Shown here: positions 1 through 30,217 of the stretch, piece by piece
Position numbering within the stretch: position 1 is the first letter of the stretch
Layout: the number at the start of each line of letters is the position of its first letter
Assembly (NCBI RefSeq): GCF_003627215.1
Contig: NZ_CP032677.1
Location: 4,035,501-4,099,500 of the forward strand
From: Pseudomonas sp. Leaf58
GTDB taxonomy: Bacteria > Pseudomonadota > Gammaproteobacteria > Pseudomonadales > Pseudomonadaceae
DNA: 64,000 bases
Direction of reading: 5' to 3'
The notes under the pieces: generated by a model
Told to the model about the DNA's origin: nothing
Databases searched by the model: none
What the model saw: only the letters and a program-made list of their open reading frames with translations
Made by a program: the position numbers and the translations under genes

Positions 1-227
1 ACGCTGCTGGCGAAGCTTGCCCGGTATATTTCGGCCCAGCACTGAAGTCGCATTGGGGGCTGGAGGATCCGTCCGATGTCGTGGGGGACGAGTCGTCGGT
101 CGACGCTGCGTTCCGCGCCACGCTAGCTCGCATCGAGTCTCGCTGCAAAGCCTTCTTCGCACTGCCCTTCAACAACCTCGACCGTGAGCAGCTCAAGCAT
201 GAGCTAGATCGTATCGGTACGATTTGA
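1..227 (+). CDS. arsC: Arsenate reductase ArsC, C-terminal part (cut by window edge)
   Basis: The first 227 bases hold the last 74 residues of a thioredoxin-type arsenate reductase, which reduces arsenate to arsenite in the cytoplasm for export. The reading frame starts at base 3 and ends with TGA. Visible family hallmarks are the ACPV segment, which carries the third catalytic cysteine, followed by KSHWGLEDPS and a conserved RIESRCKAFFALP helix. The N-terminus with the P-loop-like CX5R site lies outside the window. The gene is followed after 12 bases by arsH, so the two are one operon. Family assignment is from motif recognition and is strong despite truncation. Confidence 0.93.
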   Translation, partial: AAGEACPVYFGPALKSHWGLEDPSDVVGDESSVDAAFRATLARIESRCKAFFALPFNNLDREQLKHELDRIGTI

Positions 228-239
228 GCCGGAGGAAAC

Positions 240-941
240 ATGTCCGAACATCTGCCCAATCTCGACCTCGCGCTGTTCGATGTACCGCCACCGGCAGCCC
301 GCTCCAGCACGCACAAACCGCGCATCCTGCTGCTGTATGGATCGAATCGCGAACGCTCATTCAGTCGCTTGCTGGTGGAAGAAGGCGCCCGCCTGCTGGA
401 GCACTTTGGTGCCGAGACGCGGGTGTTCAATCCGTCAGGCCTGCCGCTGCCTGACGATGTACCTGTCGAGCACCCTAAGGTGCAGGAACTGCGTGATCTG
501 GTGCAGTGGTCAGAAGGCCAGGTCTGGTGCTCGCCAGAGCGCCACGGTGCGATGTCTGCAGTTTTCAAGGCTCAGATCGACTGGATCCCCCTGGCACTGG
601 GAGCGGTTCGCCCCACCCAAGGCAAGACCCTTGCGGTCATGCAGGTGTGCGGCGGTTCGCAGTCGTTCAACGTGGTCAACCAACTCCGCGTGCTCGGCCG
701 CTGGATGCGGATGTTCACCATCCCGAATCAATCTTCGGTGCCCAAGGCCTACCTAGAGTTCGACGACACTGGCCGGATGAAACTCTCGCCGTACTACGAT
801 CGTTTGGTGGATGTAATGGAGGAACTGGTGAAGTTCACCGTCCTGCTGCGCGACCGTCAGGAATTTCTGGTAGACCGCTATTCGGAGCGCAAGGAAAGCG
901 CTGAGCAGTTAACAAACCGTATGAACCAGCGCTCGATCTAA
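240..941 (+). CDS. arsH: ArsH, NADPH-dependent FMN reductase of arsenic operon
   Basis: A 233-residue flavodoxin-fold protein. ArsH proteins are NADPH:FMN oxidoreductases that oxidise trivalent organoarsenicals and raise arsenic resistance. The FMN phosphate loop [10 protein letters not shown] is at residues 34-43, and the segment around [18 protein letters not shown] is the family's substrate/flavin loop. Length matches ArsH. The start is fixed by a GGAGG Shine-Dalgarno ending four bases before the ATG. It closes the arsC-arsH operon; the following gene is on the opposite strand and belongs to the prophage. Confidence 0.95.
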
Positions 942-1875: not shown

Positions 1876-2466
1876 TCAATTATCAAAAGTGCTTTTTAGC
1901 GAAAAATAGTACTCGTCGATTTTATCCAAATGATTCAGAGCATTTGCCTTCAGAACATTTAATGCAATATGTGAGATCCTCCGCCGCTGCTCATGATCAT
2001 CACCCACACTCTCAAGCGCCTTTAAAACCTCAGGCTGCATTAACGGGGGGCCAAGGAGTTTGTCAGTCGCATTCCCCATAAAAACAAGCTGATTGGCCAG
2101 CCCCAATATTGCCTCCACCTGCTTCCCCGAAGCGAGCTCATGCATGGGGACGCCTTGAAGGGCCCTGACTAGACCAGATGTGACGTCCCTGTGGTACACA
2201 CCATAGAGACTGACATTGCTTCCGGGGTCATCATCAATATCCTCGATAGCTGCGCGAATTTTGTTCGCGTACTCGCGTGCGGCCTCCGCAATAGAAAAAG
2301 TGGTCTTCTGCTTGAGCAATCCAGCATGCTCAACAGAAAGCCGCGACACTCGAAAGGCGACGACTAACGCTACGAGCGATCCTATCGCCTGCACCCACGC
2401 CGGCATTCCGTTACTGGAAATGACATCCCAAACCGAACACAAGAACTCCCGCCAATCAAAGTGCAT
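1876..2466 (-). CDS. Uncharacterised membrane-anchored protein, possible moron
   Basis: A 196-residue protein of unknown family. One transmembrane helix (about residues 22-42, WVQAIGSLVALVVAF) follows a short N-terminus, and the remaining 150 residues are predicted soluble and helical, with no motif I recognise. A GGAG Shine-Dalgarno lies eight bases before the ATG. It is co-oriented with the other AT-rich membrane gene to its left (178 bp gap with nothing visible) and with the D12 methyltransferase to its right. The pair could be a two-gene accessory module; this is inference from position and composition. Confidence 0.7.
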   Translation of the reverse strand: MHFDWREFLCSVWDVISSNGMPAWVQAIGSLVALVVAFRVSRLSVEHAGLLKQKTTFSIAEAAREYANKIRAAIEDIDDDPGSNVSLYGVYHRDVTSGLVRALQGVPMHELASGKQVEAILGLANQLVFMGNATDKLLGPPLMQPEVLKALESVGDDHEQRRRISHIALNVLKANALNHLDKIDEYYFSLKSTFDN

Positions 2467-2536
2467 TTATTTTCTCCACCCGCCCTTGGAAAAAAGCCTG
2501 CGATCGAAAATTGACTCGATCACAGGTCATAATAAT

Positions 2537-3331
2537 TCAGAATAAGCCGCCCAGCGATTCTGGTTCCCAATTCATTATCACAAGTTCGCCGGTCACATCC
2601 GCCTTACCTTGGCGCTGGTTCGTGTTGCTATAGCGGATATCCAGGCACTCAAAGTGGAAACCATCGAACGCTCGGCGAATGTCTGGGTGGTCGTTGATGC
2701 TGACCATCACCCTGCCCTTACAGCGCCGCATGAAATCAGCCATGCGCTCGTATTGCTGGAACGGGAAATCCACCCCATAACCGGCAGTCTGCCAGTATGG
2801 CGGGTCCATGTAGAAGAACGTATGCGCCCGATCGTAGCGCTCGGCACAGTCGAGCCATGACAGGTGCTCGACGTAGGTACCCGCGAGACGCTGCCACGCG
2901 GCGGACAGATTCTCTTCGATGCGCAACAGGTTGATGGCCGGCCCGGTGGTCGCGGTACCGAACGTCTGCCCAGTGACCTTGCCTCCGAAGGCATGCTGTT
3001 GCAGGTAGAAGAACCGGGCGGCGCGCTGGATGTCTGTGAGTGTCTCGGGGCGCGTCATCTTCTGCCACTCGAAAATCTGCCGGGAGCTCAGCGCCCATTT
3101 GAACTGGCGCACGAACTCCTCAAGGTGGTTCTGGACAACGCGGTAGAGGATGACCAGGTCACCGTTTAGATCGTTCAGCACCTCCACCGGGGCGGGCTGG
3201 GGACGCATGAAGAACAACGCGGCACCGCCAGCGAAGACTTCGACATAGCACTCATGAGGGGGAAAGAGAGGGATCAAGCGGTCGGCCAGGCGGCGTTTGC
3301 CACCCATCCAGGGAATAATTGGTGAGGTCAT
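2537..3331 (-). CDS. Phage D12-class adenine-N6 DNA methyltransferase (Dam-like)
   Basis: A 264-residue member of the D12 (alpha-type Dam) family, which methylates adenine N6, typically in GATC. The order of motifs is typical: GGKRRLADRL at about 10-19, the AdoMet loop FAGGAALFF at 33-41, VLNDLN at 51-56, and the catalytic DPPY at 176-179. Length is normal for the family. It follows the lysis genes, leaving a 150-bp gap that contains a LexA-type box immediately upstream of its start. No restriction partner is seen, so it is probably a solitary phage methylase that protects DNA or alters host methylation. The Shine-Dalgarno is weak. Confidence 0.9.
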   Translation of the reverse strand: MTSPIIPWMGGKRRLADRLIPLFPPHECYVEVFAGGAALFFMRPQPAPVEVLNDLNGDLVILYRVVQNHLEEFVRQFKWALSSRQIFEWQKMTRPETLTDIQRAARFFYLQQHAFGGKVTGQTFGTATTGPAINLLRIEENLSAAWQRLAGTYVEHLSWLDCAERYDRAHTFFYMDPPYWQTAGYGVDFPFQQYERMADFMRRCKGRVMVSINDHPDIRRAFDGFHFECLDIRYSNTNQRQGKADVTGELVIMNWEPESLGGLF

Positions 3332-3346
3332 AGGTATGCAAGTCTT

Positions 3347-3366
3347 TACTGTATGGATAAACAGGT
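3347..3366 (-). promoter_or_regulatory. LexA (SOS) box upstream of D12 methyltransferase
   Basis: TACTGTATGGATAAACAGGT contains CTG-N10-CAG with the extended CTGTAT...ACAG core of the gamma-proteobacterial LexA operator. It ends 16 bases before the ATG at 3331, where a repressor would block transcription of the methylase. No other gene starts here. LexA control is inferred from the match. Confidence 0.65.
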
Positions 3367-3482
3367 GTTAGGCTCGCCGCGCTTTGTGCACAAGGCAGAG
3401 GCTGCGGCTGGACTTGCAGGAAGGGTCTGCGGGTTCGGCGGGCCGGGCTGGATGTTGGCGCATCTACCCGGCTCGCCTCTTT

Positions 3483-4037
3483 TCATTTGGTGACTTCGCG
3501 GACGTAGGCCTGGCAGGCCTGCAGTGCGATCATCCCTCGATCACCGGTGTCGGTGATGCCGATAATTCTTTGAGCATGCGCTGGGTCAAGTCGGGCGCGA
3601 ACGGCTCCATGAACCACGCCTCCGGTGCCGGCGGCTTCTCGCACCCCACCGGCACAACCCGGGGCGGCAAAGGTTCCGGCGTCGACAAGGACTGACAGCC
3701 GCAAGTCAGCAGTAGCCAGCCTGTCACGCAGGCGATCTTGAGTCTGTTGTGCATCGTTCATTTCCTTCCAATGTGTTTTGCCCTGCTCCTCCAGGCGATC
3801 TTCCAGGGCTTGTCGCTGACTTTTCTGCTCTGCCAACTGCTTCAGGGCCGCAGCTGCAGCCTCCTCGCGTTCGCGACCATAGATCCGGTCCTTGTCTGCA
3901 AGCTGCTGGACATAACCTGTAGCCTGCTCAGCCAGCTGCTTTCCGTACTCGCTGGCCTGCCACACCCAGGCTCCACGCCCGCCGGCATAGAGCCCGACCG
4001 CCACGGCCAGAAGTGCGATACGCCAATTCATCGGCAT
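3483..4037 (-). CDS. Rz-like inner-membrane spanin
   Basis: A 184-residue i-spanin that would link the inner membrane to the outer-membrane partner Rz1 and fuse the envelope in the last step of lysis. An N-terminal signal-anchor (residues 4-20) is followed by a long charged coiled coil (about 30-110: QLAEQATGYVQQLADKDR and following). The start ATG overlaps the endolysin stop (TAATG), so translation is coupled. The Rz1 gene is nested in another frame within its 3' half, as in lambda. Confidence 0.85.
   Translation of the reverse strand: MPMNWRIALLAVAVGLYAGGRGAWVWQASEYGKQLAEQATGYVQQLADKDRIYGREREEAAAAALKQLAEQKSQRQALEDRLEEQGKTHWKEMNDAQQTQDRLRDRLATADLRLSVLVDAGTFAAPGCAGGVREAAGTGGVVHGAVRARLDPAHAQRIIGITDTGDRGMIALQACQAYVREVTK
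3530..3754 (-). CDS. Rz1-like outer-membrane spanin lipoprotein, nested in Rz
   Basis: A 74-residue lipoprotein encoded wholly inside the Rz gene in a different frame. The signal peptide ends with the lipobox LLTCGC, giving acylation at Cys19 or so, and the mature part is proline-rich (PEPLPPRVVP, EKPPAPEAW), as in all Rz1 proteins. It would be the o-spanin partner of Rz. Nested architecture, lipobox and proline content together make the call strong despite the short length. Confidence 0.85.
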   Translation of the reverse strand: MHNRLKIACVTGWLLLTCGCQSLSTPEPLPPRVVPVGCEKPPAPEAWFMEPFAPDLTQRMLKELSASPTPVIEG

Positions 4038-6782: not shown

Positions 6783-9700
6783 TTAAACATGCGGTTGGTC
6801 GAACAGTTGAGCCGAAGCCATACGCGCCGATGCTTCGCGCTGCCATGCCTCAAACAGCCGACGCAGCGGTGACTCGATTTCACGGACGACCTGCGACGGG
6901 TCTTTCACATCGCCGTGCACATCGATCCTGATGTTGGGTGAGAACGAAAACGCCTGATCCACCTTCGGCGCCGATACCCTCACAGGCGCAGCCGCTTTAG
7001 CTGGCTGAGCCAGTTCGGGCATCCGAGGTGGCACCGGTGCCAACTGGGCCACCATGTCACGCACCACTTCACCGAAACCGGCCGGCAAGGCTGCCAACTG
7101 GGGGACAGCTGGCGGTGAAACACCTTCTGCGACAGGCCTACGCTCGCGGCTGTCGATCACCACAGGCACCGGCGCCAGGCCTGCACCCGGGAATCGCACC
7201 TTGTTGGCTGTCAAAGCCGGCAACAGGTACGGGTCCTTGGACTCCGGATCGCGCGGGTCATACGACACCGCAGGCTCGGTCGGCGCCGGTGTAGCCACGG
7301 CTCGCACTGCACTCCCCAGCTTCGGTGCTTCCTGCAGCACAGGTTCAGGCACAGGGTCAGGTGGCGCCGCCGGCAGCACCAGCGGCGCACCAGGGAAGCG
7401 CACCTTGTTGGCCGTCAACGCCGGCAACAGGTACGGATCCTTGGACTCGGGGTCGCGCGGGTCATACGACACCGCAGGCTCGGTCGGCGCCGGTGTAGCC
7501 ACGGCTCGCACTGCGCTCCCCAACTTCGGTGCTTCCTGCAGCACAGGTTCAGGCACAGGGTCAGGTTGCGCCGGCGGCCGCACCAGCGGCGCACCTGGGA
7601 AGCGCACCTTGTTTGCCGTCAATGCCGGTACCAGGTACGGGTCCTTGGACGCCGGGTCGAGCGGGTCATACGACACTTCAGGCTCAGCCGGGGTCGGAGT
7701 GGCCACGGTTTTTACCGTGTCGCCCAACCTCGGCAGTTCCTGCTGCGCCGGTGCCGGTTCAGGTTCGACTGCTGGCTCAGGCTGCACCGGAGCCGAAACG
7801 GCCACGGCTCGCACCGTCTTACCCAGTTTCGCTGGCGGCTCCTGCACGATCGGTACGGCTTCGGTTTGAGGCGCCGGTTGCGTCGGCGGCCGTACAAGCG
7901 GCGCACCAGGGAAACGCACCTTGCTGGCCGTCAGCGCGGGCACCAGGTACGGATCTTTGGACGCTGGGTCGAGCGGGTCATACGACACTTCAGGCTCAGC
8001 CGGGGTCGGGGTGGCTACGGCTCGCACCGTGTCGCCAAACCTCGGCAGCTCCTGCAGCGCCGGCGTCGGTTCGAGCTCGGTAACTGGCGCAGGTTGTGCT
8101 GGAGCCGAAACGGTCACGGCCCGCAACGTATTACCCAACTTCGCCGGCGGTTCCTGCTCGATCGGCTCGGCCTCAGGTTGAGGTTCGGGCTGCACCGGTG
8201 GCCGCACCAGCGGCGCACCTGGGAAACGGACCTTGTTGGCCGTCAGCGCGGGCACCAGGTACGGATCTGTAGACGCCGGGTCGAGCGGGTCATAGGACAC
8301 CTCAGGCTCGGCTGGCACCGAGGCTGGCACATTGCGCACCGTGTTACCTAGTGCCGGTACCGGCGCCGCCGGCACTGACTGGGTGGCAGGCTCACGGTTG
8401 TCGATCACTATCGGCGCTACGACAGCAGCCTTTGCCGCTGCTGGTAACGGGGCCGAGGTATCAACTTTGGGAGTTGGCTTGTCCTTCTGTGCCGGCGTCA
8501 GGGTTACACGTACCGCCTCCCCCGGCGCTGGCGGACTTTCCGACTTCGCCATGGCCTCGGGCTCGGGTTGTTCATCACCAAACCAGCGCTTGCCCAGCCA
8601 CCCGCCGAGCGACTCGCCACCCATGCCACCCAGTACAGCACCGACGGCGCCGCCTACTGCAGTACCTATGACCGGTACCACCGATCCAATGGCCGCTCCA
8701 GCAGCCGCGCCTGCGAGTGTTCCCGCAAGGCTGCCAGCTGCACCTCCGTACCCCTCTGCCTTCTCATCTTGAGAACTGGCATTCATCGCGACATCGATCG
8801 CAGCGGCACCGGCGTCCACCACATTCCCACCAGGCAGTCGCTTGGCAAGACGCGTAACGCCACGCACTGAGCGAGCCACCCTGCCCAACTCTTCAACCCC
8901 GGTCACCATCTTCGGCGCAGCAGCAGGAACAGCTGGCTTCACCGGTGGCGGCTTGGGTGCCTCAACTTTCACCCCGGGCCGGGCTGGGGGCGCTTGCCTT
9001 GCCTCTCGTCTGCGAGCCCGACGCCGGCTTCTACGACTCCCCCGGGCAGGTGCTGCGGGCGCGCTGTTTGTGACGCTACTGCCGATCCCGCTGAATGCAT
9101 CGGTATTGACCACGAACACTCGCTGCGTGTCATCCCTGCCTGCTAGCGGGTCGTTCGCAGGCGCCGCATCCGCCGGCGTTGCACCAAACACCTTACCCAG
9201 CAGGTCAAGGCCGGTATCGACCACTTTGCTGCCCGTCTTAGGCAGCTCAATGGGCGTACGATCGCCACGCCCCGCCCGGCCCGCCATGCTCTCCAGGCCT
9301 CGACCTCGCGCGAGGTTCACCACACCACGCCCGATCTTGAACGCGCTGGACGCAGTCTTGAGTGCAAGGATGGCCGCCACGGTGCCAGTAATGCCCGCGA
9401 CGACAGCCGGGAAGCTGTCAGACAGCGAGGTAATGCCACGGGCGACCGCTGTCAGGCCTTTCGCCGCCATATCAGTTGCCGGACGGATAGCGTCGCCAAT
9501 GCTGCGCATTGCGTCGTCAGCCGCCTGGACCGTCTCGGCCCACTGCTGCGCCGAGGTTTCACGGCGCTCGGCCAGGTTTTTGTCGAGGATGCCCGAAGCC
9601 TTCTGCGAGTCGGCCTTGAGTTCCTCATACAAGCCCCTGTTCTGCCCATAGGCAGTGAGCGCCGCCTTGACCTGCATGTCGGCGAAGATATCGCCGGTGC

Positions 9701-20357: not shown

Positions 20358-21353
20358 TCAGGCGGTCAGGCGGATGACTGCACGGGGACGCGTGCAGATG
20401 TGCAACGGGTTGGACTGAGCTTCACCCGCAACACCCTTACCGAAGGGCATTTCCTCCAGCTTGCTGTAATACGGCAGACCTTCGGTGTTGACGGTTTCCA
20501 TGTAGTCTGCCGGCGCGTAAACCGACAGGAACAGTTCAGAAACCCCCTCAGGCACCAAGCGCGCTTCATCGTCAGGGACGAATGGAACACCCGCGACCTT
20601 GCCCCGGTAACGCTCCCAGCTAATACCACCAAACTCGAACGTTTCACGCCCGTCGCCACGAAGCGCTGCGGCCTGCTGGCTACCCTTGTAGGTATCGACA
20701 ACCGATGAGTGGGCGATGAGTTTCTTCCAGAAGGTCTTGCCGCAGAAAGCGCGGGCGCCGGTGGTGGTCACGTTGCCGAGAGCATCTTCTTGCATGTCCA
20801 AGGCGTCCATGCACTGCACCTGAATGTTGGCGTTCGGGTCATTCAGTCCCATCGACTGCTTCTGCTGCGACACCCCGAAAACCTTGTAGATGTCCAGCAG
20901 CACTGAAGAGCCGTCTGCGTCGAGCACCTTGCCGTTGATGGCCCCCATCCGATGAAACTCGTGAGTGGCATCCAGTTGGCGTTTCGCCTTGGCCAGACGC
21001 TTGTTGACCACATCCTGTACGGCCTGCAGCTCCGTCAGCGTGCCGAACGCGCGAATACCCTGGATCTCGTCCGCCTTGATCGCAAAGCGCTGCGGCAGGT
21101 GAACGGTATTGAACGGGATCAGCGTGCGCTTGCTACCACCCACCACCAGGCCAGAGGTGCCGCGCTCCCCCGCCGGCACCAGAGCGAGCGTGTCACCGTC
21201 TTTCTCGATCTGCACGGTAAGGGTGGCGACACCCTCCTCCTGGAACAGGCCAAGAGCCGCAAGGCGCCCTGGTACGTACTCCTGCTCGTTGATAGCAGCG
21301 GTCAAGGCTGCAACGCCGAAAGCGTCGTCTTGGAAAATGGCAATCTCAGCCAT
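20358..21353 (-). CDS. Major capsid protein (lambda gpE family)
   Basis: A 331-residue major head protein of the lambda gpE type. Diagnostic segments: EQEYVPGRLAALGLFQEEGVATLTVQIEKDG at the start, the central GAINGKVLDADGSSVLLDIYKVFG, and the C-terminal YMETVNTEGLPYYSKLEEMPFGKGVAGEAQSNPL. Length close to lambda gpE (341). It is preceded by decoration protein D as in lambda. No catalytic function. Confidence 0.95.
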   Translation of the reverse strand: MAEIAIFQDDAFGVAALTAAINEQEYVPGRLAALGLFQEEGVATLTVQIEKDGDTLALVPAGERGTSGLVVGGSKRTLIPFNTVHLPQRFAIKADEIQGIRAFGTLTELQAVQDVVNKRLAKAKRQLDATHEFHRMGAINGKVLDADGSSVLLDIYKVFGVSQQKQSMGLNDPNANIQVQCMDALDMQEDALGNVTTTGARAFCGKTFWKKLIAHSSVVDTYKGSQQAAALRGDGRETFEFGGISWERYRGKVAGVPFVPDDEARLVPEGVSELFLSVYAPADYMETVNTEGLPYYSKLEEMPFGKGVAGEAQSNPLHICTRPRAVIRLTA

Positions 21354-21761: not shown

Positions 21762-22915
21762 GGTCGTGCTCCTTTATTGGCGGCCTGCCGGCGGGCAGCC
21801 CAGATGCTGGATGGATTGGGTAACTGCGCCTTGACCTTCTCTGGCTCGTCATCGGCCGGCGGCAGGCTGTTGTCGATCTCAAAACCCTTGCCGGAGCTGA
21901 CCAGCTTCTCGAACAGCCGCGCCCGCACCGCATCAGGCTCCAGGCCGGCCTGCACAAATTCAACGGTTAGCTCTGGCAGCCGAGCGGCTACGCAGAGATC
22001 ACGGACACCCTTCGCACGCGTCAAGGCAGCCTGCACAGTGGCCTTGTCGGCCAGTTTGGTGGAGGCAATCAACGGCTCGACCAGATTACTGATTCCCGCC
22101 TTGGCGCAGTCCTGGGCGATCATCAAAGCCAGCGCAGTAGAGTCGCCTGGGTCAGCGGCTGGCAGCTCCGGCGGTGTTGCCGGCTGACCACCCGTTGCCT
22201 CCGGCTGGTCGGCCAACTGATCCAGCAGCGCCTTGGGTGTCTGACGGTAGCGCTGCATCGCCGCGCCCTGGCCAAGGCACGCCTTGACCTCGACGCCGTT
22301 ACCCACGTCGTCAGCCAGGCCCAGCGCGAGGGCTTCCTGGGCAGTCAACCAGGTTTCATCATTGACCATACGGCGCAGCTCGGCATCGTCGATGTCCGGT
22401 GCCTTGGCTTTGTAAGCCGCGATGATTGCCTCGAAGGTCTGGTCAAGGACGTCAGCCACCCGGCGCAGGTCCTCGGCATCACCGCTGGTCCAGGTCCACG
22501 GGTTGTGCACCATCAGCATCGCATTGGAAGCCATCACCAGGCGGTGGGCGCCGCACGCTGCGACGCTCCCTGCGCTGGCCGCCAGAGCATCAACACGGGC
22601 GGTACAGCGCTCACCCAGCCGATTCAGCGCGTTGTGAATGGCCAGGCCGTCGAACAGATCGCCGCCGATGGTGTTGAACGCCACCACCACCGGGGAAACA
22701 CCGTCATCGATCGCTTTCAGGTCCTGAATGAACTCGTTCGCGGTGATGCCCCAGCCCCCGATCTCACCGTAGATGTAGATCTCGATGGGAGCGGCATCGA
22801 CCTTGGCATCGCCCTGCCCCTCACTTGCCGCGCTGATCTTGTACCAGTGCTGGTCTTCAACCTGCTGCACCGAGGGCGCCTTGTTAAAGATGCGAAACGG
22901 CATCAGCTTTTTCAT
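21758..22915 (-). CDS. Head maturation protease/scaffold (ClpP-like, lambda gpC/Nu3)
   Basis: A 385-residue fusion of a ClpP-type serine protease (about 40-215) with a scaffolding tail. Substrate-groove strands PVVVAFNTIGGDLFDGLAIHNAL, the catalytic Ser in ALAASAGSVAA (near residue 115) and His in MVHNPW (near residue 137) are visible. The region after residue 240 is acidic and helical, ending SIWAARRQAANKGARP, as in scaffold domains. The ATG overlaps the portal stop (ATGA). It would cleave scaffold, portal and itself in prohead maturation, now without function since the portal is broken. Confidence 0.93.
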   Translation of the reverse strand: MKKLMPFRIFNKAPSVQQVEDQHWYKISAASEGQGDAKVDAAPIEIYIYGEIGGWGITANEFIQDLKAIDDGVSPVVVAFNTIGGDLFDGLAIHNALNRLGERCTARVDALAASAGSVAACGAHRLVMASNAMLMVHNPWTWTSGDAEDLRRVADVLDQTFEAIIAAYKAKAPDIDDAELRRMVNDETWLTAQEALALGLADDVGNGVEVKACLGQGAAMQRYRQTPKALLDQLADQPEATGGQPATPPELPAADPGDSTALALMIAQDCAKAGISNLVEPLIASTKLADKATVQAALTRAKGVRDLCVAARLPELTVEFVQAGLEPDAVRARLFEKLVSSGKGFEIDNSLPPADDEPEKVKAQLPNPSSIWAARRQAANKGARP

Positions 22916-23158
22916 TTCTTCCCCTTGTCGCCGGACTCATCAGGGTCGTCCTCGATGGCCGGCAAGCTGCTGTAGTTGAGGCCCAGAGCCTTTGCCCGGG
23001 CGATATCGGCGGCGTTCTCTTCGTCGACCACCTCCGCGTCCGTACCGTTTCGCAGGCACACCTCGCTTCGCGAGGCGAAGCCCGCGGCGATCTCCATGCT
23101 GCGCGACTGGACATCCTGCACCGGGTGGATGTAGGCCCAGCCCTGAGGTACCCAACGG
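22912..23158 (-). pseudogene. Portal protein, C-terminal remnant (lambda gpB family)
   Basis: Only about the last 80 residues of a lambda-type portal remain: RWVPQGWAYIHPVQDVQSRS, MEIAAGFASRSEVCLRNGTD and the acidic tail ending DESGDKGKK. A full portal is about 480-530 residues. Upstream the same frame runs into the first codons of an early gene on the opposite strand and meets TAG within 60 bases, with no portal-like sequence. The 5' part is therefore deleted. The stop overlaps the protease start by 4 bases, as in intact relatives. Confidence 0.88.
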
Positions 23159-23637: not shown

Positions 23638-23888
23638 CGAACCAATGCCCACGCAGCTGCCTTGTTCACGGCCCATCTGGTTGCGGAAAAACAACTTACG
23701 CCAAGGCCATCGCCAAAGCACTCGGCCTGCGCGATGTACTTGATAACTGGACACCAGGTAAGCCCGCCCCGCTGCTCAATACATTGGTCCTGAGCAGTGA
23801 GTGCGACCCGACCTGGCACTTCAAAGGCCGAGCAATGACCTTCAACCAGGCGATGCAGCTGGTTGGACGACAGGAGGCCGGACTGTGA
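23634..23888 (+). CDS. Mini P-loop protein in early operon
   Basis: An 84-residue protein with a perfect Walker A motif (HGPSGCGKTT, residues 12-21) followed by an AAA/kinase-like helix (YAKAIAKALG) but no clear Walker B (LLNTLVLSSECD is a weak candidate). Too short for a full NTPase. It overlaps its neighbours by 4 bases on both sides (ATGA, GTGA), so it is co-expressed with the C5 methyltransferase. Function unknown; intact rather than truncated, judging from the coupled stop. Confidence 0.7.
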   Translation: MTNQCPRSCLVHGPSGCGKTTYAKAIAKALGLRDVLDNWTPGKPAPLLNTLVLSSECDPTWHFKGRAMTFNQAMQLVGRQEAGL

Positions 23889-25564
23889 GCCTACGTAAAC
23901 ACGTACTTAAGCACTTCCACATGTGCTGCGGCCTGGGCGGCGGCGCGAAGGGCTTCAATCGCTCCAAGCCTATCGTGGGCAACCTCCAGGCAGACTGGCA
24001 GTGCATTGGCGGGGTCGACGTCGATCCCGCCGGACTGGCCGACTTCGAGCGCCTCTCAGGCGTCAAAGGCACGCTGATTGATCTGTTCACCCGTGACCAG
24101 TACATCCGCTTTCACGGCAAAGAGCCGCCGCCTGGGTGGCGCGAGGCCACGCCGGAGGACATTCGCAAGGCGGCTGGCGGCCAGCGACCGGACGCCGTGT
24201 TCATCAGCTCTCCGTGCAAAGGTGCGAGCGGGCTGCTGTCGGAAACAATGAGCCAAACCCCGCGCTACCAGGCTCTCAACGAGCTGACCCTACGCTGCAT
24301 CTGGCTGTTCTGTGAGGCATGGGCTGACGACCCGGTTCCGCTGCTGGTGTTCGAGAACGTTCCTCGCCTCGCCAGCCGTGGGCGACACTTGCTTGACCAG
24401 ATCAACAGCCTGCTCTCCAGCTTTGGCTACGCCGTTGCCGAAACCACCCACGACTGCGGGCGCATCGGCAATCTTGCGCAGAGCCGAAAACGCTTCCTGC
24501 TGGTTGGGCGGCATGTCGAAAAAGTACCGCCGTTCCTGTACGAGCCTGAGCAGAAGTCACTTCGCGCGGTTGGCGACATTCTCGGCCGCATGCCACTGGC
24601 CGGCGACATCGAAGCAGCTGGCCCGATGCACCGGGTTCCATCGCTGCAGTGGAAAACGTGGGTACGCCTTGCCCTTGTCGAGGCCGGTAAGGACTGGCGC
24701 AGCCTGAACGATTTGGCGATCGAGGAAGGCTATCTGCGCGACCTAATCATCGTTCCGCAGTTCCGCGACGGGTTCCTGGGCGTGCATGACTGGCAAGAAG
24801 CAGCTGGCACAGTCGCTGCGCGCAGCGGCCCCACCAATGGCAAGTTCTCGGTAGCAGATCCGCGCGCCAAGGCCGGGGCTCTGCAGTATCAGCAGTACGG
24901 CGTACGCCGCTGGGGAGATTCCAGTGGAGCCGTCATCGGCGTTAAGAGCCCCGGGCAGGGAACGTTCAGCGTTGCCGATCCACGTCGAGCGGGCGCCGGA
25001 TTCGGCAAGTACCAGGTTACGCCGTACAACAGCCCAGCTGGAACCGTCATCGCCGGCAGCACTACCGGCCAGGGCGCCTTTGCGGTGCAAGACCCACGCC
25101 CCGGCATGCGCCGCACCAAAGGTGACGCTTACCTCACCGGCGGGCACTACGGCGTTGTGCCGTGGGACGGGCCGGCCGGCGCAGTGTCCGCCAGTGCCAT
25201 GCACGACAACGGCCGCTGGAGCGTGGCCGACCCGCGCCTGCCCGACGCCAATGACCGCCTGGCATGCGTGATCGAATCGTTGGACGGAACATGGCATCGC
25301 CCCTTCACCACCTTCGAGCTGGCGGCCATACAGAGCCTGGTCGAACCGGAGGAGCAGCTTGAGTTGGACGGCCTGAGCGACCAAGCGTGGCGCGAGCGCA
25401 TCGGTAACGCCGTCCCACCAGCTGCGGCAGAGGCAGTTGCCGACGTCATGGGCACGACCCTTCTGCTGGTTGCCCAGGGCGAAACCTTTGTGCTGAGCAG
25501 CATGCCAATTTGGGTACGCCCGGTTGCCGTCGGCCTGAGCGTGGCTCAACGGGAGGCCGCATGA
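23885..25564 (+). CDS. Phage C5-cytosine DNA methyltransferase with repeated recognition region
   Basis: A 559-residue C5 methyltransferase. Motif I is HMCCGLGGGAKGF (12-24), the catalytic Cys is in SSPC (residue 111, motif IV), ENV at 157-159 (motif VI), QSRKRFLLVG (199-208, motif VIII) and the C-terminal RIGNAVPP (motif X). Between VIII and X lie about 180 residues with four units of the type YGVxxWxxPAGxV...GxFSVADPR in place of an ordinary target-recognition domain. The start is GTG at 23885 in a GTGA overlap; the frame is open further up but that part overlaps the P-loop gene. No restriction gene is present. Confidence 0.93.
   Translation: MSLRKHVLKHFHMCCGLGGGAKGFNRSKPIVGNLQADWQCIGGVDVDPAGLADFERLSGVKGTLIDLFTRDQYIRFHGKEPPPGWREATPEDIRKAAGGQRPDAVFISSPCKGASGLLSETMSQTPRYQALNELTLRCIWLFCEAWADDPVPLLVFENVPRLASRGRHLLDQINSLLSSFGYAVAETTHDCGRIGNLAQSRKRFLLVGRHVEKVPPFLYEPEQKSLRAVGDILGRMPLAGDIEAAGPMHRVPSLQWKTWVRLALVEAGKDWRSLNDLAIEEGYLRDLIIVPQFRDGFLGVHDWQEAAGTVAARSGPTNGKFSVADPRAKAGALQYQQYGVRRWGDSSGAVIGVKSPGQGTFSVADPRRAGAGFGKYQVTPYNSPAGTVIAGSTTGQGAFAVQDPRPGMRRTKGDAYLTGGHYGVVPWDGPAGAVSASAMHDNGRWSVADPRLPDANDRLACVIESLDGTWHRPFTTFELAAIQSLVEPEEQLELDGLSDQAWRERIGNAVPPAAAEAVADVMGTTLLLVAQGETFVLSSMPIWVRPVAVGLSVAQREAA
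24780..25240 (+). repeat. Four-unit in-frame repeat within the C5 methyltransferase
   Basis: The DPR-ending cores (FSVADPR, FSVADPR, FAVQDPR, WSVADPR) begin near 24847, 24964, 25078 and 25213, and each is preceded by a Y/F-x-V-x-x-W/Y ... AG-x-V segment. The units are diverged at DNA level and conserved in protein, so they are an old protein repeat rather than a recent DNA duplication. Confidence 0.75.
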
Positions 25565-26865: not shown

Positions 26866-27117
26866 ATGGCCAAGCCGCAGATTAAACCGATCCATGAAGC
26901 TGCTAACAAAAGCGAAGCGGTACAACTTCTGATAACACCGTCCACTTGGATACGAAAAGAACTTCTCTTCCCCATTTTCGGACTGAGCACCGAAGCCGTT
27001 CGCAAGTATCGTGATCGTGGGATCTGGCTGGAGGAGAAACAATGGCGGACTGATCCAGCCAACGTCATTGTTTACAACCGCGTTGAAATCGAAAACTGGA
27101 TGGCCGGCCGTCCATGA
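26866..27117 (+). CDS. xis: Excisionase
   Basis: An 83-residue DUF1233-type excisionase with a winged-helix, MerR-like DNA-binding domain: STWIRKELLFPIFGLSTEAVRKYRDRGIWLEEKQW, then VIVYNRVEIENWM. It directs the integrase toward excision. Start at ATG 26866 with GGAG 11 bases before; upstream sequence in this frame is not phage-like. The stop overlaps the integrase start (ATGA). Confidence 0.85.
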   Translation: MAKPQIKPIHEAANKSEAVQLLITPSTWIRKELLFPIFGLSTEAVRKYRDRGIWLEEKQWRTDPANVIVYNRVEIENWMAGRP

Positions 27118-28358
27118 GTGCGAAGCTTCCACTAGGTGTCGATGCCTTGCCGAAAGGTGTCGACATCAATGGCAACCTTCTGCGGATCGCCTTCATGTTT
27201 GAAGGCGAACGCCGCCGGGAGCCACTGCGAAACGTCGCCAAGATCAATAAAGCCGCCATCGCCTATGCGGACAACAAACGCAGGACGATACTTGCCGAAA
27301 TTAAGGAAAATCGCTTCGACTATGCGGCGCATTTTCCTGAGTCGGCCTGGTTACGAGCACGACAGCAAAAGCAGAACGAGCCCAACCAACGTACAGTGAA
27401 TGAAGGAATCGTGCGCTGGCTGGAAGTTATGAAAGTAAAAAAAGCACTTAGCACCTTCATCAATTACAAAAGCAAGTCTGCACATGTCAAGAGAAAATTT
27501 GGTGACAGAATTATCGCCACCATTCCAAAAAGTGAGCTTGAACTATTCCAAGCTGAGTTGCTTAGATCTGGGCTAAAACCCAAAACAGTAAATGACATTT
27601 TCACTGTCGTCCGTGGTGTTTGGGGTGATGCGTTCAGCGACGAAATAATCAAGACAAACCCATTGGAGCGCATTGAAAATATTCAAAGCGATTCAAATAG
27701 CGAGTTTGCCGACCCCTTTACTCGGAGCGAAATCGATCGCATCGCTAAAGCCGATGCCGACCGCGAAGCTGACACCCGGATGATCGTATTCAACTGCTGG
27801 ACTGGGCTTTCACTCTCAGAGTTAATCGCTGTAGCACGAGAAGATGTGGACCTAGTCGCCGGCACTGTCACAGTGCGACGAGCACTGGTTTCAGGCGAGT
27901 TCAAGGTTCCAAAGGAACGGTCACGTATCCGCACCGTTGAGCTGATTACCCCGGCCTTAGCATTAATGAATCAAATCATGGCAGACACCTCAGATGCAGA
28001 GCCGATGCAAATCACTGTCGTGCAACGCGACAACATCACTAAGAAACACGAGCGAGTTCGCTTCCTATTTCGCAGCTCAACCAGCGGTCTTCTGTGGAGC
28101 GGCAAAACCCTGAGCAACTGGTTTACCAGTCACTTAGAACGAGCAGGTATCCGCCACCGAGGCGCCAACCAGGCGCGCCATACCTTCGCGAGCCAGGCAC
28201 TTTCGAGCTATGTCCCGATAGAGTGGGTTGCTCGCCAACTCGGCCACAGTGACACGACCATGGTACGTAAACACTACGGTCGCTGGATAGCGACTGACGC
28301 CAAAAGCATGGCTGAGATGGTTTCCACAATGATGGGTTTCGACTGCCTACCCTCTTGA
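27114..28358 (+). CDS. int: Tyrosine recombinase integrase
   Basis: A 414-residue phage integrase. The N-terminal arm-binding part (residues 1-80), a SAM-like core-binding domain (about 95-190) and the C-terminal catalytic domain are in order. Catalytic elements seen: QARHTF (second Arg, with Asn in place of the usual first His), LGHSDTTM and the nucleophile Tyr in VRKHYGRW. The first catalytic Arg, normally in TGxR, is Ser here (WTGLSLSEL). This may be a trait of its subfamily. It reads toward tRNA-Ser, its presumed attachment site. Confidence 0.93.
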   Translation: MSAKLPLGVDALPKGVDINGNLLRIAFMFEGERRREPLRNVAKINKAAIAYADNKRRTILAEIKENRFDYAAHFPESAWLRARQQKQNEPNQRTVNEGIVRWLEVMKVKKALSTFINYKSKSAHVKRKFGDRIIATIPKSELELFQAELLRSGLKPKTVNDIFTVVRGVWGDAFSDEIIKTNPLERIENIQSDSNSEFADPFTRSEIDRIAKADADREADTRMIVFNCWTGLSLSELIAVAREDVDLVAGTVTVRRALVSGEFKVPKERSRIRTVELITPALALMNQIMADTSDAEPMQITVVQRDNITKKHERVRFLFRSSTSGLLWSGKTLSNWFTSHLERAGIRHRGANQARHTFASQALSSYVPIEWVARQLGHSDTTMVRKHYGRWIATDAKSMAEMVSTMMGFDCLPS

Positions 28359-28426
28359 ACGGAACAAGTCTGTTATCTAAGCTGGAACCGCCAACACGAT
28401 CAGCACATCATTTGAGGGAACAGTGG

Positions 28427-29842
28427 TTGAAAACACCAAAAATATTCATTTCGTATAGCTGGTCCAGCCCCACACACGAACGGTGGGTGCTTGATTTAGG
28501 CGAAAGCCTAATGGAATCGGGAATAGAAGTCATACTGGACAAGTGGGACCTAAGGCCGGGACAGGACGCTGTTGCCTTTATGGAATCCATGGTAACCGAC
28601 TCAACTATCGATAAAGTTCTACTGATCTGCGACAAGGTATATTCAGAAAAAGCTGATGGTCGCCAAGGTGGAGTGGGCACAGAAACACAAATTATCTCAA
28701 AGAAAGTTTACGAACAGGTCAACCAAGAAAGATTTATCGCTGTAATTGCAGAAAAAGATGATGAAGGGCGCGCTTACACTCCGACATTTTACCACTCACG
28801 CCTATATATCGACCTCAGCGATCCGGAAGCATATAGCAACGGATTCGACGAACTAATTCGATGCATCTACAACCAGCCACAACACACCAAGCCGAAGCTA
28901 GGCAAGAAACCGGAATTCCTGACGAACGAAGTTATTATAAGTCTCGGAACGTCAAGTTTAGCAAAGAGAGCAACAACCTCAATTCGTGAAGGAAAGGGCA
29001 ATGCGACTGCTACTTTTAACGAATACTTATCACTATACAGTGAAAATTTAGAGAGAATCAGAATAGAGCGAAAGCCGGACATACCGTTCGACGAGCAGGT
29101 AGTAAATAACATAAAAGAGTTTGCGACCTCACGCAATGAACTCTTACAAGTCATAACGCATGCCATCCGCTATTTCGACGAGGAGCAGTGCGCCGACCAA
29201 CTGCATCAATTTCTTGAGTCCTTGCTCAAGTATCACGAACCACCAGAAGACGGAAGAAACAGGCAGCAGTCAGATTCTGACAACTATAGATTCATCATCC
29301 AAGAGATATTTATATACACGATTGGATTATGCATAAAAAACAATAAATATCTAGCTGCATCGATCTTACTGGACAAGCACTACTACATACAGTCGAGATC
29401 ATCATACTTAGCAGGTTACGACTGTTTTTATGACAACTCTGGAATTATCGAGAATCTAAATAAACGAAAAGAGATGAGGAGATCGTCACTTAGTGCAGAT
29501 ATCACTAAGGAGATGAATAACACTAGTGGCTTAGACTTCTCTAGCTTGATGCAGACAGATTTTCTTCTATTTCTCAGAAGCCAGATACATGCAGGATTCT
29601 GGTGGCCCAAAACGCTCGTTTATTTGGGGCATTACCCAGGGCCATTTGAAATGTTTGCCCGCTCTGCCTCTTCAGCATATTTTGTGAGGTTAAAAGCAAT
29701 TCTCAATATCAAAGGAAAAGCTGAGCTAGAGGCGTTCGCCGCAACGGCCAATCAAAATGGAAATCGGTATTACGGTTTTAGCGGGTTTGGCATGGACTGG
29801 AAACGCTTGATGAACCTAGACGAACTGGAAACCCTTCCGTAG
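28427..29842 (+). CDS. SEFIR/TIR-like domain protein, probable anti-phage defence gene
   Basis: A protein of about 471 residues. Residues 3-130 are a SEFIR domain (TIR relative): KIFISYSWSSPTHERWVLDL, LDKWDLRPGQD, ICDKVYSEKADGRQGGVGTE. The rest (130-471) is helical without known motif and could sense phage. Single-gene SEFIR systems have been reported to abort infection by NAD depletion; a similar role is inferred here. I prefer TTG 28427, seven bases after GAGGGA; a TTG at 28355, overlapping the integrase stop, would add 24 residues. The gene is markedly AT-rich compared with all neighbours, showing separate origin. Confidence 0.85.
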   Translation: MKTPKIFISYSWSSPTHERWVLDLGESLMESGIEVILDKWDLRPGQDAVAFMESMVTDSTIDKVLLICDKVYSEKADGRQGGVGTETQIISKKVYEQVNQERFIAVIAEKDDEGRAYTPTFYHSRLYIDLSDPEAYSNGFDELIRCIYNQPQHTKPKLGKKPEFLTNEVIISLGTSSLAKRATTSIREGKGNATATFNEYLSLYSENLERIRIERKPDIPFDEQVVNNIKEFATSRNELLQVITHAIRYFDEEQCADQLHQFLESLLKYHEPPEDGRNRQQSDSDNYRFIIQEIFIYTIGLCIKNNKYLAASILLDKHYYIQSRSSYLAGYDCFYDNSGIIENLNKRKEMRRSSLSADITKEMNNTSGLDFSSLMQTDFLLFLRSQIHAGFWWPKTLVYLGHYPGPFEMFARSASSAYFVRLKAILNIKGKAELEAFAATANQNGNRYYGFSGFGMDWKRLMNLDELETLP

Positions 29843-29857
29843 GGCATCTGCCGAGAA

Positions 29858-29884
29858 TATGCCTCTCCTCAAGCGGGAGGCATA
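29858..29884. terminator. Inverted repeat after the SEFIR gene
   Basis: TATGCCTC (29858-29865) pairs with GAGGCATA (29877-29884), 15 bases after the stop codon. It could end transcription of the early operon, but there is no T-tract. The next 100 bases to the tRNA terminator show nothing else. Confidence 0.4.
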
Positions 29885-29986
29885 GGAGCCGAGCAAGCTA
29901 TCACTGATGGACTCGTGCGGCCTAGAGCGGGCTGCTGACTGGAAATTCTGCCCTAAAAATTCCCTAACTCATACCACTTAAACGAC

Positions 29987-30022
29987 GAAGCCCCCGAAAA
30001 CATCAACGTTTTCGGGGGCTTC
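29987..30022 (-). terminator. Terminator of tRNA-Ser
   Basis: A perfect 15-bp stem (29987-30001 with 30008-30022) around a 6-base loop, 15 bases beyond the tRNA 3' end on the minus strand. The stem has AAAAC/GTTTT next to the loop and a CCCCC/GGGGG base. It could act in both directions and also stop early-operon read-through. Confidence 0.8.
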
Positions 30023-30036
30023 GGCTACTTCGCGTA

Positions 30037-30126
30037 TGGCGGAGAGATAGGGATTTGAACCCTAGGTACTGTTGCCAGTACAACGGATTTCGAATCCGTC
30101 CCGTTCGACCACTCCGGCATCTCTCC
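30037..30126 (-). tRNA. tRNA-Ser (anticodon CGA)
   Basis: A 90-nt class II tRNA on the minus strand with encoded CCA (30037-30039). The acceptor GGAGAGA pairs with TCTCTCC, the anticodon loop TTCGAAA gives CGA, a long variable arm (TGTACTGGCAACAGTACC) is typical of serine tRNAs, and GGTTCAAATCC is the T arm. Its 3' end faces the integrase side, so it is the likely attachment site of the prophage. Confidence 0.97.
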
Positions 30127-30217
30127 AATGCCGCGCATCATACCAGCGTTCTTTTAAAACGCAAATCTTTTTTTCAAAAAAATCGCGTGGTATCAGGCGC
30201 TTGCGTGAACGCGCCGC

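Follow-up and report, generated by a model that had tools for sequence, protein, structure and literature searches.

A SEFIR-domain gene between an integrase and tRNA-Ser(CGA)

In a stretch of 64,000 nucleotides from Pseudomonas sp. Leaf58 (NCBI RefSeq assembly GCF_003627215.1, contig NZ_CP032677.1, positions 4,035,501 to 4,099,500), which in its full length is referred to as the window, an intact AT-rich gene on the forward strand is located between a phage integrase and the right attachment site (attR) in a gene for tRNA-Ser(CGA). The gene, termed bSEFIR after the family whose profile it matches, encodes a protein of 471 residues (28427..29842, +) and starts 68 nt past the stop codon of the tyrosine integrase on the same strand (414 residues, 27114..28358, +), next to which an excisionase-like protein of 83 residues is encoded (26866..27117, +; phrog_539, E 4e-7). 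On its other side, a pair of arm-type repeats (TGCCCTA-4 nt-TTCCCTA, 29949..29966, +), placed 11 bp apart at positions -88 and -77 from the tRNA, is followed by a hairpin detected as inverted match (29986..30023), which adjoins attR and probably terminates the tRNA transcript, and by the 29-bp attR core (30034..30062), which lies in the 3' end of tRNA-Ser(CGA) (30037..30126, −). With a GC content of 43.3%, compared to 51.0% in the integrase and 61.1% in the window, the gene is indeed much more AT-rich than its neighbours, as noted in a first-pass annotation of the same DNA.

The gene had initially been assigned to positions 28355..29842. This open reading frame of 495 codons exists on the forward strand and is the longest reading of the gene, but its start is not the one supported. 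The TTG codon at 28427 is supported as the better-placed start, because its start residue is common to most of the first 30 aligned homologue rows (MK.PKVFISYSWS and variants) and because the 24-residue extension from 28355 is, by eye, unlike the extension found in the related gene of Pseudomonas sp. LB-090624 (locus L001) described below. A ribosome-binding-like stretch, GAGGGA, is found directly upstream of this TTG. A consensus scan of positions 27000-30200 detected no promoter-like site on the forward strand, which agrees with the earlier remark that the gene has no visible promoter of its own, while an internal promoter proposed near 28360-28420 was not recognised either, though it may exist.

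The protein is a full-length bSEFIR family member

Profile searches place the gene, over its whole length, in an already known family of antiphage genes from bacteria. The bSEFIR profile of PADLOC (PDLC03957) matches residues 1-469 (E 4.4e-111, model positions 35-384 of 412), and the phage protein family PHROG 11745, which has no assigned function, matches residues 2-467 (E 3e-136). At the N-terminus, the Pfam entries SEFIR (residues 4-110, E 9e-17, 62.1 bits with a cut-off of 23) and TIR_2 (residues 6-144, E 5e-17) both identify the SEFIR domain that had been read from the letters, and a structure model displays the same fold, with neighbours that include TIR/SEFIR adaptors such as the IL-17RA/ACT1 assembly and MyD88. 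We assign the domain to residues 1-150 (28427..28876, +). Its candidate catalytic residue, Glu86 in the motif GGVGTET, is a glutamate in 113 of 114 aligned sequences and an aspartate in one, and we infer a catalytic role for this position. The close homologue P0021 carries the aspartate and constitutes a natural variant bearing on this role.

The C-terminal domain, a presumed sensor, encompasses residues 170-471 (28934..29839, +), that is about 300 residues instead of the approximately 340 estimated before, and is modelled as a single all-helical unit with a pLDDT of 94.8, for which a comparison with the PDB gave no convincing match. For this region, a new trigger and specificity had been suggested as possible. 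Since the PADLOC and PHROG models both extend across it, the C-terminal half falls within the described bSEFIR architecture, and the protein does not represent a new one.

A search for related proteins gave 2,617 matches at E <= 0.001 among 8,000 scored sequences. The best 120 of these are all single proteins of similar length, most of them 443-500 residues long, and carry both the SEFIR and the TIR_2 entries.

Proposed mechanism

Based on these properties and on published statements on SEFIR systems, we consider it probable that the gene on its own forms a bSEFIR antiphage system, which a now-defective prophage at tRNA-Ser(CGA) carries as exchangeable cargo and which would act as an NAD+-cleaving abortive defence. 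The gene with its family, domains and conserved glutamate, the anatomy of the attachment sites, the exchange of cargo in the slot and the decay of the carrier are observed features of this proposal, to which NADase activity, a trigger, an abortive outcome and expression from an own promoter would be added. Several papers count SEFIR among the systems that deplete NAD+ or are abortive (PMC12322248, PMC12774641, PMC12926258, PMC11084316), statements citing earlier work name major capsid proteins as what SEFIR recognises (PMC10884400, PMC11364771), and SEFIR is described in S. thermophilus as active against particular phages of a single genus and not against others (PMC12322248). In light of these statements, we take the gene to encode a combined sensor and effector, whose helical domain, upon recognition of a phage protein, would free the SEFIR NADase. 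In such a scheme, the C-terminal domain would keep the SEFIR domain inactive until a component of an invading phage, most likely a capsid protein, binds. SEFIR domains would then assemble and, with Glu86 as the catalytic residue, cleave NAD+, and the infected cell would stop before phage release. The single-gene abortive role suggested in the first-pass annotation is supported as the likely one.

TIR folds serve varied roles, and the presence of the IL-17RA/ACT1 assembly and MyD88 among the neighbours of the model would also be compatible with a SEFIR domain that produces a signal molecule or serves as a scaffold, with protection conferred by an effector encoded elsewhere. We regard this as very unlikely, in view of the uniform single-protein organization of the best 120 homologues and the listing of SEFIR as NAD+-depleting in the passages cited above. 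Moreover, an inspection by eye of the neighbours in nine other Pseudomonas stretches, which represent eight distinct loci since L015 and L108 are the same, revealed no constant partner of bSEFIR.

The carrier is a defective prophage

A first repeat search found no partner of the attR core inside the window. An exact copy of the 29-bp string (attL) is located in the 16-kb stretch that precedes the window (L084), at L084:13394, corresponding to window coordinate -2606, and the element is therefore a prophage of about 32.6 kb, which starts 2.6 kb left of the window. The same pair of 7-bp repeats is found inside attL at L084:13516 and 13527, and it also occurs in the free phage KT1, there on the opposite side of the core and with the slot of this phage being empty. 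By this arrangement, the paired repeats look like arm sites of the integrase. With exact attachment repeats and paired arm-type repeats inside both ends, the gene lies, as proposed at the outset, as prophage cargo between the integrase and the attachment site in tRNA-Ser.

Genes for head, decoration, protease, sheath, tape-measure and tail proteins are present, among them that of the major head protein (20358..21353, −; phrog_29, E 2e-70). Of the portal gene, a truncated C-terminal remnant of about 80 codons is left (22915..23154, −), and a stretch of 73 residues in it shows 68.5% identity to the end of the portal protein of a Pseudomonas phage. Its frame closes just upstream, and the position of the remnant beside rightward genes, with a phage DNA methyltransferase right of it (23801..25564, +), marks a break of the prophage. 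The portal family PF05136 and the GpA-type terminase family PF05876, the one terminase family searched, have no match at the prophage locus, and the single match of each in the genome lies at G000:C1:1.79 Mb. From its gene content, the carrier is defective.

Such decay, with a truncated portal and two families unmatched, would also suit a gene without activity that is carried along by a dead prophage. This explanation is in our view highly improbable, as the reading frame is full-length with conserved SEFIR residues, appears to be under coding constraint and has stayed intact in a relative where nearly all of the phage is gone (see below).

The prophage carries a second cargo at its other end. 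An arsenic-resistance operon, with ArsB identified by Pfam (E 6e-161) and, by eye, an FMN reductase resembling ArsH and an ArsC-like protein, extends from L084:14446-15729 across window positions 1-941, inside the att repeats. The integrase is 36% identical to that of phage phiCTX, which likewise uses a tRNA-Ser site.

A remnant element retains bSEFIR and not its integrase

In L001, both exact att repeats are kept at a distance of 6.5 kb, and the sequence between them contains scraps of tail genes, about the last 31 codons of the integrase, a gene for a CHAT-domain protein, and a bSEFIR frame that is complete and whose product is 68% identical to that of the window. The CHAT-domain protein sharing this remnant is 725 residues long (L001:5852-8029). 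A comparison of the two bSEFIR genes yields a dN of 0.24 with a dS too high to compute and hence no dN/dS ratio, and from this disparity we infer strong coding constraint. As integrase and phage have nearly disappeared from L001 while bSEFIR is still open, the gene has outlived its phage and the neighbouring integrase.

These features bear on the expression of the gene, for which a link to the integrase operon had been suggested as possible. If bSEFIR were tied to the integrase transcript, it might serve the phage at integration or excision and not the lysogen. The shared strand, the distance of 68 nt and the failure to recognise a forward promoter would all fit such a dependence, but it becomes improbable in light of the intact frame that persists in L001 next to an integrase cut to a few codons. 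For the same reason, it is unlikely that the integrase promoter is required, and in L001, if bSEFIR is expressed at all, this promoter is an unlikely source. The proposed linkage is further weakened by filled relatives of the locus, as in 12 of 14 the first cargo gene points towards the integrase, in agreement with expression apart from the integrase promoter.

The integrase–tRNA interval is an exchangeable cargo slot

Relatives of the integrase (E <= 1e-100) are found in 29 of 398 Pseudomonas genomes, including that of Leaf58, and we surveyed the corresponding stretches of all 28 others. In 25 of these, a tRNA-Ser gene is located downstream (24 CGA, 1 GGA), whereas L072 and L074 contain no tRNA-Ser in the stretch and the contig ends at L083. 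The slot is empty in 11 of the 25 relatives, with 123-145 nt from the end of the integrase match to the tRNA, and contains genes in 14. One of the empty slots, in L076, belongs to a 53% identical integrase beside the tRNA-Ser(GGA). The repeat TGCCCTA occurs twice at a distance of 11 bp in 18 of the 25, a diverged pair with the same spacing in three (L071, L073, L076) and a looser set in another three (L070, L080, L082), with none in L077, where a second integrase lies in between. Since the list of motifs was made after viewing the sequences, it is the fixed place and spacing and not the count that serves as evidence.

The exchange of cargo is most evident in L056, L057, L058 and L059, whose integrases share 92.7-95.4% identity among themselves and 83-84% with that of the window, and whose cargos share no mutual similarity (blastp, E 1e-3). 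In total, 21 slot reading frames were listed, with two taken from the 9.2-kb interval of L077, and a blastp comparison of 20 of them with one another and with bSEFIR distinguishes 11 kinds of cargo among the 14 filled slots, with sharing confined to the pairs L056/L078, L057/L066 and L060/L061. Judged from these occupants, the interval between integrase and tRNA-Ser is an exchangeable cargo slot. None of the 14 holds bSEFIR.

PADLOC was applied to 19 of the frames and Pfam to 17, with a defence match defined as E <= 1e-6 over more than half of the protein. Such cargo is found in five of the 14 filled relatives, a number which, with no control slot scanned, is not a measure of enrichment. It includes PDC-M68 in L060 and L061, in L060 together with HNH and an ABC three-component C-terminal domain, PDC-S60 in L062, although over 166 of the 906 model positions, NsnA and a PD-T4-2-like GmrSD_N plus HEPN protein in L068, and a ShosT-like protein in L075. 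In the other nine, PADLOC and Pfam did not recognise the cargo as defence. L056 encodes a DUF3800-like protein below the cut-off (2245-3393), which is 76% identical to the likewise weakly DUF3800-like protein of L078 (1866-3092), whose sole PADLOC match is Csn2 (E 0.005), and we consider the two candidates for an undescribed defence gene. The remaining cargos are YfbU in L057 and L066, DUF4325 in L058 with a match to DrmA (E 6e-5), HNH-DUF3298 in L059 with short HNH matches, a 778-residue protein on the integrase strand in L063 (2325-4661), whose matches are confined to a SEC-C motif at its C-terminal end, an unassigned pair of frames in L065 and a ClpP-like protease in L077.

Among the listed titles, abstracts and passages of the open-access literature searched, we found no description of this slot. 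Its organization resembles defence hotspots such as cDHS1 and cDHS2 of P. aeruginosa, in which fixed flanks enclose exchangeable immune genes (PMC10250203). Unlike in these hotspots, the flanks are formed by the 3' end of the integrase and by arm sites of the phage itself, and the slot would therefore travel with the phage. It is conceivable, and proposed here tentatively, that in tRNA-Ser(CGA) phages of Pseudomonas the interval from the stop codon of the integrase to the attP arm sites serves as a mobile plug-in site for defence, through which complete systems are exchanged among nearly identical integrases, with several of the unassigned occupants being undescribed antiphage systems and bSEFIR acting as a capsid sensor that would need to spare the capsid of its own phage. 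A phage-encoded sensor of capsid proteins, if true, would raise the question of self-recognition. The gene itself is ordinary. Of greater interest and wider use is the exchangeable slot, with sharp borders at the integrase end and the paired repeats, an empty state in 11 of 25 relatives and occupants that can be listed one by one.

Relationship to known SEFIR proteins and distribution in Pseudomonas

The tested bSEFIR system is reportedly that of Millman et al. 2022. The bSEFIR proteins described by PDLC03957 are likewise single proteins with an N-terminal SEFIR domain and a C-terminal domain under the same profile, and the gene in the window differs in host and carrier. The name 'bSEFIR' itself had no match in the open-access literature searched. 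In the temperate, P2-like Klebsiella phage ST15-OXA48phi14.1, a SEFIR protein of PHROG 11745 is 32% identical over the whole query, but its gene is flanked by the replication endonuclease region on one side and by the portal gene on the other, and not by integrase and attachment site. Escherichia phage 500465-1 has a match over 35% of the query, and a prophage gene with homology to SEFIR/TIR domains is mentioned in a passage on S. agalactiae (PMC11357604). Phage-borne SEFIR genes are thus already present in databases and print, and the window gene extends a known defence family by a member that resides in a Pseudomonas prophage. The crystal structures of bacterial SEFIR domains (5y8e, 5y8f) show the isolated domain with the C-terminal part not solved, in contrast to the protein described here, which has a C-terminal domain.

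The bSEFIR profile matches in 16 of 398 Pseudomonas genomes (E <= 1e-20), in eight of which, including that of Leaf58, at least 340 of 412 model positions are covered, with the others matching the N-terminal half or so. Both tRNA-Ser(CGA) and an integrase relative are found within the 1.5-kb flanks in two of the 16, the window and L086. The latter is identical to L001 over 4,434 bases and both are therefore counted as one genome. Another tRNA gene is located in a 1.5-kb flank at four further loci (L085, L093, L096, L098). In a tree of 74 rows, the window gene pairs with P0002 (100/100) whereas L001 belongs to a different group of six rows (99/96). As the two are not sisters, vertical inheritance of bSEFIR in the slot is rejected, and the tree would suggest two entries or an exchange, with genomic surroundings known for a minority of its rows.

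In L103 (G214), bSEFIR is located between tRNA-Cys (3631-3704) and, about 2 kb further, a gene that by eye looks like an integrase (7824-8891), an arrangement that resembles the one in the window at a different tRNA. In L107, a relative of bSEFIR is split into two reading frames of 209 and 250 residues (L107:4106-5560), and broken copies of the family thus exist.
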